In this document: positions 157 through 46,783 of the stretch, in pieces
Layout: every line of letters starts with the position of its first letter
How positions within the stretch are numbered: position 1 is the first letter of the stretch
Origin: Rhizobium sp. Q54
Lineage (GTDB): Bacteria > Pseudomonadota > Alphaproteobacteria > Rhizobiales > Aestuariivirgaceae
Reading direction: 5' to 3'
Length of the DNA: 47,835 bases
Assembly: GCA_945889445.1 (NCBI GenBank)
Contig: CAMDBX010000021.1
Span: 1-47,835, forward strand
Translations under genes and position numbers: made by a program
Notes under the pieces: model-generated
The model's database searches: none
The model's input: the letters and a program-made list of their open reading frames with translations, nothing else
Told to the model about the DNA's origin: nothing

Positions 157-347
157 CCGATGTGATTTGAGTAGTGCCAGAAACTAGCTCTGCGCTGTTG
201 CCGTCTCCTCGCTGCCGTTGCCACGCCCGGAACGCATTACGCTTGCTATGTGTCGGCGATTCGTAGGTAATTTCAAGCTTTGAAGATGGGCACAGGAACT
301 TTTGCCCAAACTTGCGGCAGTGCGTCTTCTGCTCGGTGCCGCGCACG
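157..347. other. Gene-free stretch between two terminators
   Basis: About 190 bases lie between the lon terminator and a second minus-strand terminator. I see no credible reading frame: the 64-codon minus-strand frame at 184-378 starts inside the lon terminator and resembles no family. HU/HupB residues expected after lon, such as a GFGTF-like segment, were not found. A small RNA or an eroded gene are possible, but nothing specific is visible. Confidence 0.4.
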
Positions 348-375
348 AAAAAGGGCCGCCCCGAAGGGCGGCCCT
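348..375 (-). terminator. lon terminator
   Basis: AGGGCCGCCC and GGGCGGCCCT form a perfect 10-bp stem with a CGAA tetraloop, followed on the minus strand by a run of five T residues. It lies 21 bases beyond the lon stop codon. Confidence 0.9.
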
Positions 376-396
376 CATGTCTTCGATGGCGGTGCC

Positions 397-2820
397 TCAG
401 TGGGCCCGAGCGGCGCTCTCGCCTGACCTTTCAGCGGCGGCTCGGGCTGCTGCTGCGGCTTCCTCTGCTGCCTCGTCCCAGGTGATCGGCTCCGGCATGC
501 GGGTCAGCGCATGCTTGAGGACGTCGTCCATGAGGGCGACCGGGATGATCTCCAGGCCCTTCTTCACGTTCTCCGGGATTTCCGTGAGATCCTTCACGTT
601 CTCCTCGGGGATCATGACGGTCTTGATGCCGGCGCGAAGTGCTGCGAGCAGCTTTTCCTTCAGACCGCCGATCGGCAGAACGCGGCCCCTGAGCGTGATC
701 TCGCCCGTCATCGCCACGTCCCTGCGAACGGGGATGCCGGTCATGACCGAGACGATGGCCGTGACCATGGCGATGCCGGCAGACGGGCCATCCTTCGGCG
801 TCGCACCTTCCGGCACGTGCACGTGGATGTCGCGCTTGTCGAACACCGGCGGCTTGACTCCGATGGTCGCGGCCCGCGAGCGGACGTAGGAGGAAGCAGC
901 CGAAATCGACTCCTTCATCACGTCGCGCAGGTTGCCGGTCACCGTCATCTTGCCCTTGCCCGGCATCATGAGCGCTTCGATCGTCAGGATCTCGCCACCC
1001 ACTTCCGTCCAGGCAAGACCGGTGACGACGCCGACCTGGTCCTCGTGCTCGGCTTCGCCATAGCGATACTTCGGCACGCCGAGATACTGCTCGACGACGT
1101 CGGGCGTCACGGTGATCTTCTTCTTGCCCTTGCTCGTCATCAGTTCCTTCACTGCCTTGCGGGCGAGTGAATTCACCTCACGCTCGAGGTTGCGCACACC
1201 GGCTTCCCGCGTGTAACGGCGGATCACCTCGTAGAGCGCTTCTTCCGTCACCTCGAACTCCTTGGCCTGAAGACCGTGGTGCTCGCTGGACTTCGGGATC
1301 AGGTGGCGACGCGCGATCTCGTACTTCTCTTCTTCCGTGTAGCCCGCAATCCGGATGATCTCCATGCGGTCGAGCAGGGCCGGCGGAATGTTGAGCGTGT
1401 TCGAGGTCGTCACGAACATCACGTTCGAAAGGTCGTATTCGACCTCGAGGTAATGATCCATGAAGGTCGCGTTCTGTTCCGGATCCAGCACCTCGAGAAG
1501 TGCTGCCGACGGATCGCCACGGAAGTCCATGCCCATCTTGTCGATCTCGTCGAGCAGGAAGAGCGGGTTGGACTTCTTCGCCTTCTTCATCGACTGGATG
1601 ACCTTGCCGGGCATCGAACCGATGTAGGTGCGGCGGTGACCACGGATCTCGGCCTCGTCACGCACGCCGCCAAGCGACATGCGGATGAACTCGCGTCCCG
1701 TGGCCTTGGCGATCGACTTGCCGAGCGAGGTCTTGCCGACGCCGGGCGGACCGACGAGGCACAGGATGGGCCCACGGAGCTTGTTGGTGCGGCTCTGCAC
1801 CGCGAGATACTCGAGGATGCGCTCCTTCACCTTGTCGAGGCCGAAGTGATCGGCATCGAGCACTTCCTCGGCGAACTTGAGGTCGTTCTTGACCTTGCTC
1901 TTCTGGCCCCACGGAATGCCGAGCAGCCAGTCGAGATAGTTGCGCACGACGGTGGCTTCTGCCGACATCGGGCTCATCTGGCGAAGCTTCTTGATCTCCG
2001 CGTCGGCGCGCTCGCGTGCCTCCTTGGAGAGCTTGGTCTTCTTGATGCGGCCCTCGAGCTCGTCGATCTCGTTCTTCTCGTCGCCGTCGCCCAACTCCTT
2101 CTGAATGGCCTTCATCTGCTCATTCAGATAGTATTCGCGCTGGGTCTTCTCCATCTGGCGCTTGACTCTGCTGCGGATGCGCTTCTCGACCTGGAGAACG
2201 GAGATCTCGCCTTCCATCAGCGCATAGACCTTCTCCAGCCGTTGCGCGACGGAGGTCATCTCGAGAAGCTCCTGCTTCTCGACGATCTTGATGGCGAGGT
2301 GCGCGGCAATGGTGTCGGCGAGCTTCGAGGGATCGGTGATCTGCCCAACCGATGCCAGCACTTCCTGCGGCACCTTCTTGTTCAGCTTCACATAGCTGTC
2401 GAACTGCGAGACGGCGGTGCGGGCCAGCGCCTCGGTCTCGGCAGTAGCGCCGTGGTCGGAGGGCAGCACCTCAACTTCCGCCTCGAAGAATTCGGTACGG
2501 TCGGAGAAGCCGTGCACGCGCGCGCGGTCGGAGCCTTCGACGAGCACCTTCACGGTGCCGTCGGGCAGCTTCAGCAACTGCAGCACCTGCGCCAGGGTTC
2601 CCACTTCGAACACGGCATCGGACGCCGGATCATCATCGGCGGGGTTCTTCTGTGCGACGAGCAGGATGCGCTTGTCTTCGCGCATCACCTCTTCCAGCGC
2701 CTTGATCGACTTTTCACGCCCCACGAAGAGCGGAACGATCATGTGCGGGAAGACGACGATGTCGCGGAGCGGCAGGACCGGGATCGTCTCAAAGCTTCCT
2801 GCGGGGGTCGTGTTGCTCAT
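397..2820 (-). CDS. lon: ATP-dependent Lon protease
   Basis: Cytoplasmic AAA+ serine protease that degrades misfolded and regulatory proteins. 807 residues, normal for LonA. Order: N-terminal substrate-binding domain (about 15-210), AAA+ module with Walker [10 protein letters not shown] near residue 360 and Walker [12 protein letters not shown], then the protease domain with catalytic Ser in [11 protein letters not shown] (near 678) and Lys in [10 protein letters not shown] (near 720), the Lon Ser-Lys dyad. An ATG five codons upstream is open, but the start at 2820 is preceded by AAGGAAG at the right spacing, so I prefer MSNTTP. Its neighbours clpX, clpP and tig on the same strand form the usual alphaproteobacterial quality-control block. 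Its own terminator follows. hupB, the usual next gene, is absent. Confidence 0.97.
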
Positions 2821-35380: not shown

Positions 35381-36802
35381 ATGACCGACATCGCCACGGG
35401 GCGGCACTCAGGCTTCTGGGAGAGCTGGAAGGCGTGTGGGTTGGTCATCGCTGTTACTGCTGCAGCAACGCTTGCAATCCAGTACCCGGGCTACCTCAAC
35501 CACGATGTCGCCTATCTGACATGGGTCGCCGACAGGGTCATGCACGGGGCGGTCTATGGCCGTGATGTCTATGACATCAACCCGCCACTCAGCTTTCTGA
35601 TCTACGTGCCGGCAGCGCTGCTCGCGCAGTTCATGGGGTTTGATCCCGCCATCAGATTGTGGACGGTCGCCGTTGTTGCGGTGTCAATCGCAAGCCTTTG
35701 GCAAACGGCAGACAAGTCCTATCGTATGCCCGTGGTCGCCGCTCTGGGAATCTTCGTCGCCCTGGCCTTTCCAAGGGAGTTTGGCCAGCGAGAGCAATTC
35801 GCACTTCTGCTGTGCGCACCCTATACGGCTGGCCACACGCCGCGTCGCGGGCTTGCCGTTCTGAATGGCGTCATGGCCGGCATCGGGTTCGCCCTCAAGC
35901 CCTACTTCCTCATCCCCCTTGCGCTGATCTTCCTGACGCGCCGGAGGCTGCGCCTCGAGGAAGTGGCGATCGCCGCGACGGGAACCACCTACGCGATTAG
36001 CATCATACTCTTTTTCCAGGTCTATCTCACAGAGTACCTGCCCCAGACAGGTGCCAGCTATTGGACACACGGCGTCAATTCTACCAGCGCAATCCTGCAG
36101 TTCTCGTTCCTTGTACCAGCATTCGTCGGATTCATCTGGTGGTTCTCCGCACCCCAACCCGGCCGTGGCGGCTTCGCCATGGCGGCACTCGGCTTCACCC
36201 TAGCTGTCGTTCTCCACAACAAGGGCTATCCGTATCACTTCATTCCCGCCTTCGGCTTCCTGGCGCTCTACCTGGCGGCGTCGCTGCGCAACAGCCGCAC
36301 ATTGGCTGCTTGGGCGTCCGCCCTGTTCCTGACGGTGGAGGCGTTCCGCCTAAGCGCTCTTGCCATTCCCTGGGTCGTTGACGTGGAAGACCGACGCACC
36401 ACCATCCCGGCCCTTCTCCAGGAGATCAACCGGTCTGCAAGCTTCTGGGTCCTGACCAACTACAACTACCCGGCCTTTCCGACGGCCATTCTCACACAGA
36501 CGCCGTTTGTCGGACTCTCTTCCAACAACAATTTCTTCTCGGCGGTTGCCGCCATCGAGGCGGGCATGGGCGAGGGAGATGCGGAGGCATTGGCACGTCT
36601 CGCGCGTGACCAGGCGGTAAAGGAGCTCGAGCGGAAGCCGGACCTCGTCATTGTCACCACCCAGTGGAACAAATATGCAGCTCTCGAGACTCCGCTGGAT
36701 GGACTGGCCTGGTTCAAGCGCGACGAGCGCTTCCGCAGCCAATGGGCTGACTATGTCTTCGCGGGCCGTGTCGGTTCCTTCGAGCTTTACCGCCGCCGGT
36801 GA
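35381..36802 (+). CDS. GT39-like (ArnT/PMT fold) integral membrane glycosyltransferase
   Basis: 473 residues with about ten membrane helices. The first loop HDVAYLTWVADRV...YDINPPL (near 41-69) matches the Asp-containing N-terminal loop of GT-C enzymes that use polyprenyl-phosphate sugars. The C-terminal soluble part starts near residue 325. The sequence is noticeably less biased toward G/C at third positions than its neighbours, so it may have been acquired. Acceptor and sugar are unknown. It begins 24 bases after the dehydrogenase and ends convergent to the MDR gene. Confidence 0.7.
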   Translation: MTDIATGRHSGFWESWKACGLVIAVTAAATLAIQYPGYLNHDVAYLTWVADRVMHGAVYGRDVYDINPPLSFLIYVPAALLAQFMGFDPAIRLWTVAVVAVSIASLWQTADKSYRMPVVAALGIFVALAFPREFGQREQFALLLCAPYTAGHTPRRGLAVLNGVMAGIGFALKPYFLIPLALIFLTRRRLRLEEVAIAATGTTYAISIILFFQVYLTEYLPQTGASYWTHGVNSTSAILQFSFLVPAFVGFIWWFSAPQPGRGGFAMAALGFTLAVVLHNKGYPYHFIPAFGFLALYLAASLRNSRTLAAWASALFLTVEAFRLSALAIPWVVDVEDRRTTIPALLQEINRSASFWVLTNYNYPAFPTAILTQTPFVGLSSNNNFFSAVAAIEAGMGEGDAEALARLARDQAVKELERKPDLVIVTTQWNKYAALETPLDGLAWFKRDERFRSQWADYVFAGRVGSFELYRRR

Positions 36803-36809
36803 AGCCCAA

Positions 36810-37817
36810 TCACCACGCCAGGCAGATCTTGCCGAAGTGCCGGCCGCTCTCCTCGTGGCGGAAGGCCTGGGCGATGTCTTCCAGCGCGAAGGTGCTGTCG
36901 ATCACCGGCCTGATGCCCGTCACCTCCAGCGCCCGCACGTAATCCTGCTGCTGCACGCGGTTGCCGACGATGAGGCCATGGAGCCGTGCCTGCTTGCGCA
37001 TAAGCGCACCCGTCGGCACCTCGCCGCTGCGCCCGGTGAGAACGCCGATCAGCGAGATGTGGCCACCCACCCGCACCGCCTCGATCGACTGCGGCAGCGT
37101 GCCTGGGCCGCCGACCTCGACGACGTGATCAACACCGCGGCCGCCCGTCCAGTCCTTCACCAACGCGCCCCAGTCGGGCTGGGTCTTGTAGTTCAGCGTG
37201 TGGGCTGCCCCCATCGCTGCAAGCCTTGCGCGCTTCTCGTCGGAGGATGAGGTGGCGATCACCGTGGCGCCCATCGCCTTCGCCAGTTGCAGGGCGGCGA
37301 TGGACACGCCACCCGTGCCCAGCACCAGCACCGTGTCGCCCGCCTTGAGATTGCCGTTGACGATAAGCGCGCGCCACGCGGTGAGGCCCGCCGTGGTGAT
37401 GGTGGCGGCCTCCTCATGCGACCAGCCTTTGGGCGCCTGCGTGAAGAAACAATCCGGCACCGTCACGCGCTCGCGGGCATAGCCGTCGACGCCATCGCCG
37501 GGCGTCGTCTCGAAGCCCGGCAGATAAGGCTCGCCGCTGATCCAGCCGGGGAAGAAGTGCGAGACAACATGATCACCCACCGCGAATTCGGTGACACCCG
37601 CGCCCACCGCTTCCACCACGCCTGCCCCGTCCGACATGGGAATGCGCCCGTCCGCCACCGATCCGGGCACTGCCATGACGCGATAGTCGTGATAGTTGAG
37701 CGAGCTCGCACGCAGCCTGACGGTGATCTCGCCTTTGCCCGGTGCCGCTGCTTCCGGACTCTCCACCAGGGTGAGGTGGTCGAGCCCGCCCGGGGCCTTC
37801 AGCCTGATCGCCTTCAT
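36810..37817 (-). CDS. MDR family alcohol dehydrogenase / quinone reductase-like protein
   Basis: 335 residues, medium-chain dehydrogenase fold. The N-terminal catalytic domain lacks the zinc cysteines (LNYHDYRVM in the place of CGTD), so this is the zinc-free quinone-oxidoreductase branch. The cofactor motif VLGTGGVSIAALQLAKAMGA is near residue 165, and TSSSDEKRA marks NADP preference. GGGAG is seven bases before the ATG. It stands alone. The 507 bases upstream hold no protein gene. Confidence 0.88.
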   Translation of the reverse strand: MKAIRLKAPGGLDHLTLVESPEAAAPGKGEITVRLRASSLNYHDYRVMAVPGSVADGRIPMSDGAGVVEAVGAGVTEFAVGDHVVSHFFPGWISGEPYLPGFETTPGDGVDGYARERVTVPDCFFTQAPKGWSHEEAATITTAGLTAWRALIVNGNLKAGDTVLVLGTGGVSIAALQLAKAMGATVIATSSSDEKRARLAAMGAAHTLNYKTQPDWGALVKDWTGGRGVDHVVEVGGPGTLPQSIEAVRVGGHISLIGVLTGRSGEVPTGALMRKQARLHGLIVGNRVQQQDYVRALEVTGIRPVIDSTFALEDIAQAFRHEESGRHFGKICLAW

Positions 37818-37879
37818 GCACCGTCTCCCTTGCCTGTTGTCGCCACCCTAGAGCAGGCCGCACAAAGCACGAAGCGATT

Positions 37880-37940
37880 GCTGAACGCGAGATGGCCCCG
37901 GAGGCGATGAGCCTCGCGGGGCCTGTTCGCGCTGTTCAGC
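37880..37940. repeat. 61-base imperfect palindrome
   Basis: GCTGAAC/GTTCAGC, GCG/CGC, GGCCCCG/CGGGGCC and GAGGC/GCCTC pair in order around a GATGA loop with small bulges. No T run follows on either strand, so it is not a simple terminator. It lies 63 bases upstream of the MDR gene. It could be a leader structure or a mobile repeat remnant. Confidence 0.7.
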
Positions 37941-38200
37941 GCTCAACCCTTTCATTCAGGGATTCAATGCCGCGTTGAAGCGGCCAGATGATCAGTGATG
38001 TGGTGAGAGCAACCCGACCTGCGCTGCAAGCGGAGGGTGCTCAGGAATGCTGGATCTGCGTGGGCGGCATCAGTGTTCGAGACCTCTCGCGTTCTGATGA
38101 GGTGATCGTGACCCTGATGGCGCCAATCGTCAAATCACGCTTTGGGTCAGCCGCGCTCACCTAATGCAAAGTCTTTTAATAAGTAAGATTACAGTTTACA
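37941..38200. other. Gene-free stretch before the small RNA
   Basis: No convincing reading frame on either strand. The last 40 bases (TAATGCAAAGTCTTTTAATAAGTAAG) are AT-rich and lead into the EcfG-like promoter. Confidence 0.4.
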
Positions 38201-38204
38201 CCGG

Positions 38205-38229
38205 GGAAACATTCATTGAGTCGGGCGTT
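38205..38229 (+). promoter_or_regulatory. EcfG-type general stress promoter
   Basis: GGAAA-N16-CGTT, one base off the GGAAC-N16/17-CGTT consensus of the alphaproteobacterial general stress sigma factor. It lies 43 bases ahead of a strong plus-strand terminator stem, with no protein gene between, so a short RNA should result, starting near 38236. Confidence 0.55.
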
Positions 38230-38235
38230 CTCCTC

Positions 38236-38304
38236 CCTCCTGTTTCTCGTGACCTCCCGTGCGTACAAACTGGGGCGGGCCTTGCAAAAGGACCGCCCCT
38301 TTTT
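38236..38304 (+). ncRNA. Candidate stress-induced small RNA (GsrN-like by features)
   Basis: A transcript of about 69 bases is predicted between the EcfG-like promoter and the terminator. It contains two CCTCC-type, anti-Shine-Dalgarno motifs: CCCTCC at 38235-38240 and ACCTCCC at 38252-38258. It ends in the stem GGGGCGG/CCGCCCC with inner CCTT/AAGG. C-rich loops, EcfG control and short length are features of the GsrN family of Caulobacter and relatives, but I cannot show homology. The first base is an estimate. aqpZ lies convergent at its 3' side. Confidence 0.45.
38272..38304 (+). terminator. Strong terminator of the candidate small RNA
   Basis: GGGGCGG/CCGCCCC 7-bp outer stem and CCTT/AAGG inner stem with GCAA loop, then TTTTTCG on the plus strand. 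No T run exists on the minus side, so it does not serve aqpZ in the usual way, although the hairpin lies 18 bases beyond its stop. Confidence 0.9.
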
Positions 38305-38324
38305 CGTCAGCGATGGAGAACCGA

Positions 38325-39005
38325 TCAGTCCTCGGAGATCATCCGGTGGATGATGGCGCCGAGAACGCCGCCGGCCAGCGGCGCAAGCCAGAACACCCAC
38401 ATCTGCTGCATGGCCCAGGGCTCGGAGAAGAAGGCGACGCCAAGCGAGCGGGCCGGGTTCACCGAGGTGTTGGACACGGGGATCGACACGAGGTGGATCA
38501 GCGTCAGGCACAGGCCGATGGCCAGCGGCGCGAAGCCGGCGGGCGCGTTCTTGTGGGTGACGCCGAGGATGACGACCAGGAACATCGCAGTCATCACCAC
38601 TTCACAGACGATGACGGAGGACAGCGCATAGCCGCCCGGCGAATGCTCGCCGAAGCCGTTGGCCGCGAAGCCGCCGGCCACGAAGTCGGCCTTGCCACTG
38701 GCGATCAGGTAGAGCACCGCCGCCGCCACGATGCCGCCCAGCACCTGCGAGGCGATGTAGCCCGGCACGTGGCTCCACGGCATGCGGCCGGCGGTGGCAA
38801 GGCCAACCGACACGGCGGGGTTGAAGTGGGCGCCCGAGACGTGGCCCACGGCATAGGCCATGGTCAGCACGGTGAGGCCGAAGGCCAGTGCGACGCCGGC
38901 GAAGCCGATGCCGAGTCCCGGGAAGGCGGCGGCCAGCACGGCGGAGCCGCAACCGCCGAACACCAGCCAGAATGTGCCGAAGAATTCGGCGAAATACTTC
39001 TTCAT
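38325..39005 (-). CDS. aqpZ: Aquaporin Z
   Basis: 226-residue water channel of the inner membrane, six helices. Both NPA motifs are present: [10 protein letters not shown] (about 62-71) and [10 protein letters not shown] (about 180-189). The stretch before the second, [10 protein letters not shown], carries the AqpZ-type selectivity-filter residues with Arg after the second NPA. I use the ATG at 39005, which begins [12 protein letters not shown], the usual first helix; an upstream ATG at 39089 would add a charged, non-homologous extension. Monocistronic. Confidence 0.93.
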
Positions 39006-39263
39006 GAGTTCAGTCCCCCATATTGGCGATTTCGCCCGTCCTGTCGCGAATCGACGGGCTGCGGCAGAGTTATACCTCGCCACAGCCAAAGATTGTCGCG
39101 TGGAAGGTATTTCCGCAAGCCAAACACCTGCCGAGAATTGACTTTCCCCACCGGAATCCCTATGTGCGGCGTAATCCAGCGCCCGGGCCCTTTTGGCGCA
39201 ATTCGCCCGCAGCGCATTTTTCGGACATCAAACCAAAGTCGCCGGAACGGTTCTTACCTCCAC

Positions 39264-40898
<1,635 letters not shown>

Positions 40899-46757: not shown

Positions 46758-46783
46758 AACGCACCGCCGCTGTTCATGGTTCC
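46758..46783 (-). promoter_or_regulatory. EcfG promoter of the OmpA-family gene
   Basis: On the minus strand GGAAC (46783-46779), 17-base spacer, CGTT (46761-46758): a full match to the general stress sigma-factor consensus. The start of transcription would be near 46750, 25 bases before the ATG. Confidence 0.7.

Follow-up and report, generated by a model that had tools for sequence, protein, structure and literature searches.

A candidate anti-Shine-Dalgarno small RNA of alphaR8-like architecture next to aqpZ in Rhizobium sp. Q54

The window analysed here, a stretch of 47,835 nucleotides that is contig C21 of the draft genome of Rhizobium sp. Q54 (G000; 4.94 Mb in 262 contigs, listed completeness 99.6%), carries a conserved module in the spacer between a gene for a zinc-alcohol-dehydrogenase-like protein (ADH; 36810-37817, minus strand) and aqpZ (38325-39005, minus strand; aquaporin Z by NCBIfam). 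We suggest, with moderate confidence, that the locus is an unnamed alphaR8-like anti-Shine-Dalgarno (anti-SD) small RNA that ends in a terminator and would lower the translation of several mRNAs. Judged from sequence, it is likely a small RNA of a known kind, a reading supported by a core that stays nearly identical among close relatives while its flanks drift. The proposed transcript would be about 96 nt long (38209-38304, plus strand), with a 5' end predicted from the parts described below. Its 22-nt core contains ACCUCCC, which could pair with the SD sequences of several mRNAs, and such pairing would lower translation of the targets as in the alphaR8 small RNAs MmgR and SisA-D, probably with Hfq. 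In the lineage of the window, the RNA would come from a free-standing gene with its own promoter, probably of the housekeeping type; in relatives where the module lies behind katG or abuts an aqp stop codon, release from the mRNA or an own promoter may apply.

Architecture and conservation of the spacer

CCTCC starts at three places in the spacer (38232, 38236 and 38253) and 67 times on the plus strand of the window. The first two lie in a pyrimidine-rich stretch (38227-38249, plus strand) of variable length and sequence, and the last forms part of ACCTCCC (38252-38258), the proposed anti-SD seed. The seed belongs to the core UGACCUCCCGUGCGUACAAACU (38250-38271, plus strand), which was defined by comparative alignment and lies outside the terminator stem. 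Sequence, folding and pairing all place a Rho-independent terminator directly after it (38272-38304, plus strand), with a 7-bp GC stem, an inner CCUU/AAGG stem and a U tract; the hairpin GGGGCGG/CCGCCCC occupies 38272-38299 and is followed by TTTTT at 38300-38304. A simple terminator scan did not list the hairpin at 38272-38304, probably because its loops were limited to 8. The predicted fold of 38234-38304 has an energy of -23.8 kcal/mol (z -1.96); 9 of 200 shuffled sequences fold equally well. In the fold of the window RNA, whose 5' end is a prediction, GUCGGGC is able to pair with CCCGUGC, and the seed is predicted to be unevenly accessible: the mean unpaired probability of the 9-mer was 0.39, against 0.42-1.0 in 14 other sequences, all with an arbitrary 30-nt 5' extension. 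The katG leader of the window genome shows, by eye, only partial complementarity to the seed. As a possible promoter, we picked by eye from the alignment of close relatives a weak sigma70-like candidate, TTTTAA-N17-TACACC (38174-38202, plus strand), which would start transcription at about 38209; three relatives read TACACT, the -35 element is poor and the fit in G001 is bad.

The initial annotation had described this spacer as an EcfG-type promoter, GGAAA-N16-CGTT, followed by a strong terminator with no protein gene between them. All of these elements are present, although the promoter pattern turns up about as often as chance predicts (see below), and inspection of ORFs of at least 60 aa revealed no convincing protein gene between promoter match and terminator. 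The three such ORFs that overlap the candidate (38164-38631, plus strand; 38176-38511, minus strand; 38259-40898, plus strand) cross aqpZ in other frames or prolong the frame of the DEAD-box RNA helicase gene upstream. A small ORF ending at the TRA before CCTCCC was also considered and rejected by eye: the window has no in-frame start codon for it, and G133 reads AAA at that place.

Among 61 genomes, 3 matched over nearly the whole query (G011, G001 and G018) and were aligned with the window (alignment A4). The core (38250-38271) was identical at 22/22, 21/22 and 22/22 positions in G011, G001 and G018, respectively, and the hairpin with its T tract at 32/33, 31/33 and 28/33. Identity in the 63 nt upstream (38164-38226) was 75%, 73% and 84%, and in the 20 nt past the terminator it was 45%, 60% and 50%. 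In the 23 nt at 38227-38249 that hold the first two CCTCC motifs, 52%, 39% and 43% of the columns were identical. On these alignments, conservation of the 38250-38304 module clearly exceeds drift. Of the earlier proposal that the RNA carries CCTCC motifs able to pair with ribosome-binding sites, what survives comparison is the motif at 38253, which is kept across the alignment; the 38232/38236 cluster, around which the sequence varies and an indel occurs, was not kept, and neither was the proposed promoter. Two further close relatives, G028 and G031, were left out of A4 because their spacers align at the hairpin only. Their aqpZ is 95-96% identical to that of the window and a similar hairpin is present, with the motif decayed to TGACCTGCCCC in G028 and CCTTGCATG in G031.

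Distribution and genomic context of the module

The 3' module (38250-38304) comprises TRACCTCCC, a GCGTA-CAAACT segment, the hairpin and the U tract. A gap inside it varies by one base among copies, and a fixed-spacing pattern search of the genus missed the window copy for that reason. We report matches to two models, R2, built from seven genus copies (alignment A3), and R3, built from eleven (alignment A5). Among the 37 genomes of the genus, R3 scored the module strongly (E <= 3e-11) in 11, namely in G000, G011, G001, G018, G002, G017, G005 and G025, which were used in the model, and in G010, G023 and G026, which were independent of it; a strong match was missing in the other 26, some of them incomplete. 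In 397 genomes of the order, R2 gave new full-length motif matches in G277 (43 bits), G005 (40 bits), G214 (33 bits) and G133 (31 bits); the genus-only model thus reached G277, which belongs to a different genus of the family. R3 gave one further strong match in 385 genomes of the class, at 45 bits in G599, whose module, by eye, directly adjoins a stop codon. Any model match at all was seen in 85/397 genomes with R2 and 81/385 with R3; the remaining rows were not counted as members, being weak (<=33 bits) or starting inside the module, and both searches scored 14 candidates per genome, so that absence there means little. Borderline cases were G032 (36 bits), G035 (27 bits), and G497 and G449 (31 bits each), in which CCTCCC stands ahead of a hairpin; G032 reads TAATCTCCC after a stop codon.

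All 77 cells of the 7-bp stem in A5 are paired, two of the seven pairs show changes on both sides, and a hairpin with a U tract is found in 11/11 copies. In the named copies, the direction of the module is fixed by the U tract, which lies beyond the hairpin when the CCTCCC strand is read. Matches to R2 and R3 also arise on the minus strand from the hairpin alone, which therefore may also serve aqpZ.

The same DEAD-box helicase gene (39264-40898, plus strand, beyond aqpZ in the window) lies downstream of the module in 11/11 genus copies and in G277. What stands between and before them differs. An inverted aqpZ separates module and helicase in 5/11 (G000, G011, G001, G018 and G025), and in these same genomes neither katG nor aqp lies upstream of the module. 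Upstream is katG in G002, G005, G010 and G026, and in G017 and G023 it is a same-direction aqp whose stop codon the module directly abuts.

The main rival to a small RNA is that the module does no more than end transcription, as a conserved terminator or the tail of a 3'UTR, insulating the helicase gene or closing aqpZ, with no trans-acting RNA involved. We consider it rather unlikely, even though it would account for the hairpin and U tract in every A5 copy, the match on both strands, the positions behind katG and aqp, and the similar hairpin that G028 and G031 retain without the core. It would not account for the conservation of a 20-nt unpaired segment, TRACCTCCC..GCGTA.CAAACT, which a terminator does not need, nor for a core whose conservation equals or exceeds that of the hairpin in G011, G001 and G018. 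Alternatively, the module could be a cis-acting attenuator of the helicase gene, in which pairing of ACCUCCC with GGGGCGG would form an antiterminator competing with the terminator. By eye, CCUCCC can indeed pair with GGGGCGG with one mismatch, and a same-strand helicase gene follows about 140-260 bases on in G002, G005, G010, G017, G023, G026 and G277. However, the module is kept in the five genomes with an inverted aqpZ before the helicase, and in G005, G010, G023 and G026 the presumed pairing is altered by an insert, CAAA or CGAA, ahead of GGGCGG, and we find an attenuator quite improbable.

The neighbours of the locus in the window are a HIBDH-type dehydrogenase, a 473-aa protein, ADH, aqpZ and the helicase. 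The gene order in G002 is HIBDH, an upstream element, katG, the module and the helicase; that of the window (HIBDH ... element, module, aqpZ, helicase) corresponds to the G002 order minus katG, and katG of the window genome is found elsewhere, on contig C7. The element was recognised in G002 from an alignment together with two BLAST matches, both weak (E 0.02 and 0.07). The katG-linked copies have a similar stretch (GGAGTA-) 20-60 nt ahead of the module, which may be a promoter. Window 38173-38226 and the G002 katG promoter have, by eye, a short CAGTTTA in common, which falls short of demonstrating homology.

The correspondence in gene order would also fit a functionless relict, the upstream region and the terminator of katG having been joined when katG was lost at the site. 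We regard this as very improbable, since the core is almost unchanged in four species with the katG-less arrangement and the adjacent sequence has diverged. A more elaborate version of the small-RNA reading, which we put forward tentatively and consider unlikely as a whole, is that of an unnamed alphaR8-like family that shifts between states: some species would carry it as the 3' end of katG or aqp mRNAs, and where katG was lost from the site it would be a free-standing gene run from the remnant katG upstream region, so that the terminator-linked anti-SD seed would have separated from its parent mRNA inside a single genus. Both situations, a position behind protein genes and a likely free-standing gene, are seen within that genus, and the origin of such small RNAs is therefore testable there.

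Several other features of the region were seen. The upstream element is a second conserved non-coding element (window 38056-38165), which reads GGCGGCATCAGTNTTCGAGACCTCTCG, about 45 variable bases and GTCAAATCACG. In G002 it is found again ahead of katG, whereas in G001, G018, G029, G014 and G015 it lies next to aqp and no katG adjoins it. In G004, a C-terminal katG fragment (G004:C13:226880-227109; L207 1381-1610), some kilobases from an intact katG, adjoins an oppositely oriented copy of the element. The katG upstream region of G002 (L208, about 1550-1580) contains TTTAGAA-N3-TTCTAA, which we take to resemble an iron-control (Irr) box. In the window, the 473-aa gene, which has no NCBIfam match, and ADH occupy 35381-37817 between the HIBDH-type gene and the spacer; in that interval neither gene was matched in G001 or G018, and ADH only was matched in G011. 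A plasmid search with the neighbourhood matched 456 records, and the best 8 of the 456 all match at the ADH gene.

EcfG control and GsrN

The initial annotation had placed the RNA under the stress sigma factor EcfG, through GGAAA at 38205-38209 and CGTT at 38226-38229 (plus strand), and had considered it a possible ortholog of GsrN; neither proposal held up. GGAA-N17/18-CGTT was found 4 times in the window against 2.49 expected, and at least 4 times in 29 of 100 shuffles, and the match is therefore not significant on its own; the GGAAC form occurs once, at 46758-46783 on the minus strand. In A4, CGTT is replaced by CTTC in G001 and G018 and by CTTG in G011, which also has GTAAA in place of GGAAA. 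We conclude that GGAAA-N16-CGTT is probably not functional as an EcfG promoter.

The sigma system itself showed no sign in the window genome. NepR gave no match in the G000 draft, with a Caulobacter control positive, and the NepR of G018, at 46 bits, indicates that the model works in the genus. PF22029 matches numbered five in G018 and four in G001; G000 and G011 had a single match of ECF type apiece, and G028 and G031 had none. The sole match in G000 is a 170-aa ECF sigma factor whose neighbour, a protein of 253 aa, matches zf-HC2 marginally; the sigma factor scored 124 bits with PRK12547 (cut-off 219) versus 262 for the EcfG-like sigma factor of G018. In G018, that sigma factor clusters with NepR and PhyR, as supported by Pfam and NCBIfam, and PhyR/EcfG-type genes are also present in G001. 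Thus, with CGTT lost in the relatives and no NepR, PhyR or EcfG found in the window genome, G001 and G018 have the sigma system without the promoter, whereas the window has a promoter-like sequence in a draft genome where the system was not found and where an assembly gap could hide a gene. More generally, the NepR-PhyR-EcfG system seems to be absent from the sub-lineage (G000 for NepR; G000, G011, G028 and G031 for PF22029), and a GGAAN-CGTT match should therefore not be taken to mean EcfG control there.

The likeness to GsrN consists of a length of about 100 nt, a C-rich segment and a terminator. Outside Caulobacteraceae, GsrN is recognised, according to PMC5869019, by proximity to the sigT-phyR locus; no locus of that type was found near the spacer or elsewhere in the window genome. 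The same source has GsrN of Caulobacter crescentus acting through a 5' loop, whereas the conserved segment of the window RNA lies next to the terminator. Rfam 15, which may not hold a GsrN model, gave no small RNA above cut-off at the spacer. That the RNA is a GsrN ortholog or another EcfG-controlled general stress RNA, as the promoter-like match and the C-rich segment might suggest, is in our judgement extremely improbable, given a promoter that is unconserved and at chance level, and a genome without a detected NepR, PhyR or EcfG and without a neighbouring general stress locus.

Relation to alphaR8 and other small RNAs

A small RNA of alphaR8-like action is, by analogy, our best reading: the nearest known architecture is that of alphaR8 (suhB/MmgR, RF00519, and SisA-D of Caulobacter), and the window RNA would work like alphaR8 and not be a member of it. 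According to PMC12559287, alphaR8 consists of a weak hairpin, then UUUCCUCCCU in single-stranded form, and a terminator; it is associated with Hfq and pairs upstream of the start codon. Like alphaR8, the candidate would be a short alphaproteobacterial RNA in which CCUCCC lies a little ahead of a Rho-independent terminator, and some module copies have an (A)CUUGGGC-like stem start. The alphaR8 10-mer, however, is absent, its place being taken by UGACCUCCCG in the window (38250-38259) or by UAACCUCCC in module copies; RF00519 (cut-off 41 bits) had no match at E <= 10 in 37830-38330; and a canonical alphaR8 lies elsewhere in the genome (G000:C20:36555-36633, 64 bits). For these reasons we did not file the window RNA as alphaR8. 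If transcribed, it would be an undescribed anti-SD small RNA beside the genome's own alphaR8 copy.

Some cross-matching of models was seen. Two weak R2 matches, G062 and G190, were genuine alphaR8 (RF00519 59 and 72 bits) and were set aside. alphaR8 scored above cut-off in 33 genus genomes, and R3 matched that locus in 11 of the 33, at E 0.01-0.45 and amid many weak rows. The link that these weak model matches make between the two could rest partly on the terminator.

SmelA075 and SmelA099 of Rhizobiales also carry an anti-SD type motif; according to PMC3927594, they have three and four hairpins with a CCUCCUCCC loop in each, whereas the window RNA has one conserved linear motif. The Rfam scan at gathering thresholds returned two tRNAs and nothing else in the window, and an E-value scan of the spacer gave two weak, chance-level matches, to sR46 and to the terminator half of Atu_C4. 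We found no name for the module in Rfam 15 or in the literature searched, and no paper on small RNAs in Aestuariivirga, the probable genus. Finally, a weak RF00519-like match (27 bits) was seen on the minus strand at window 338-412, over a terminator after the end of an ORF that we took by eye for lon, and it is probably a match to the terminator only.
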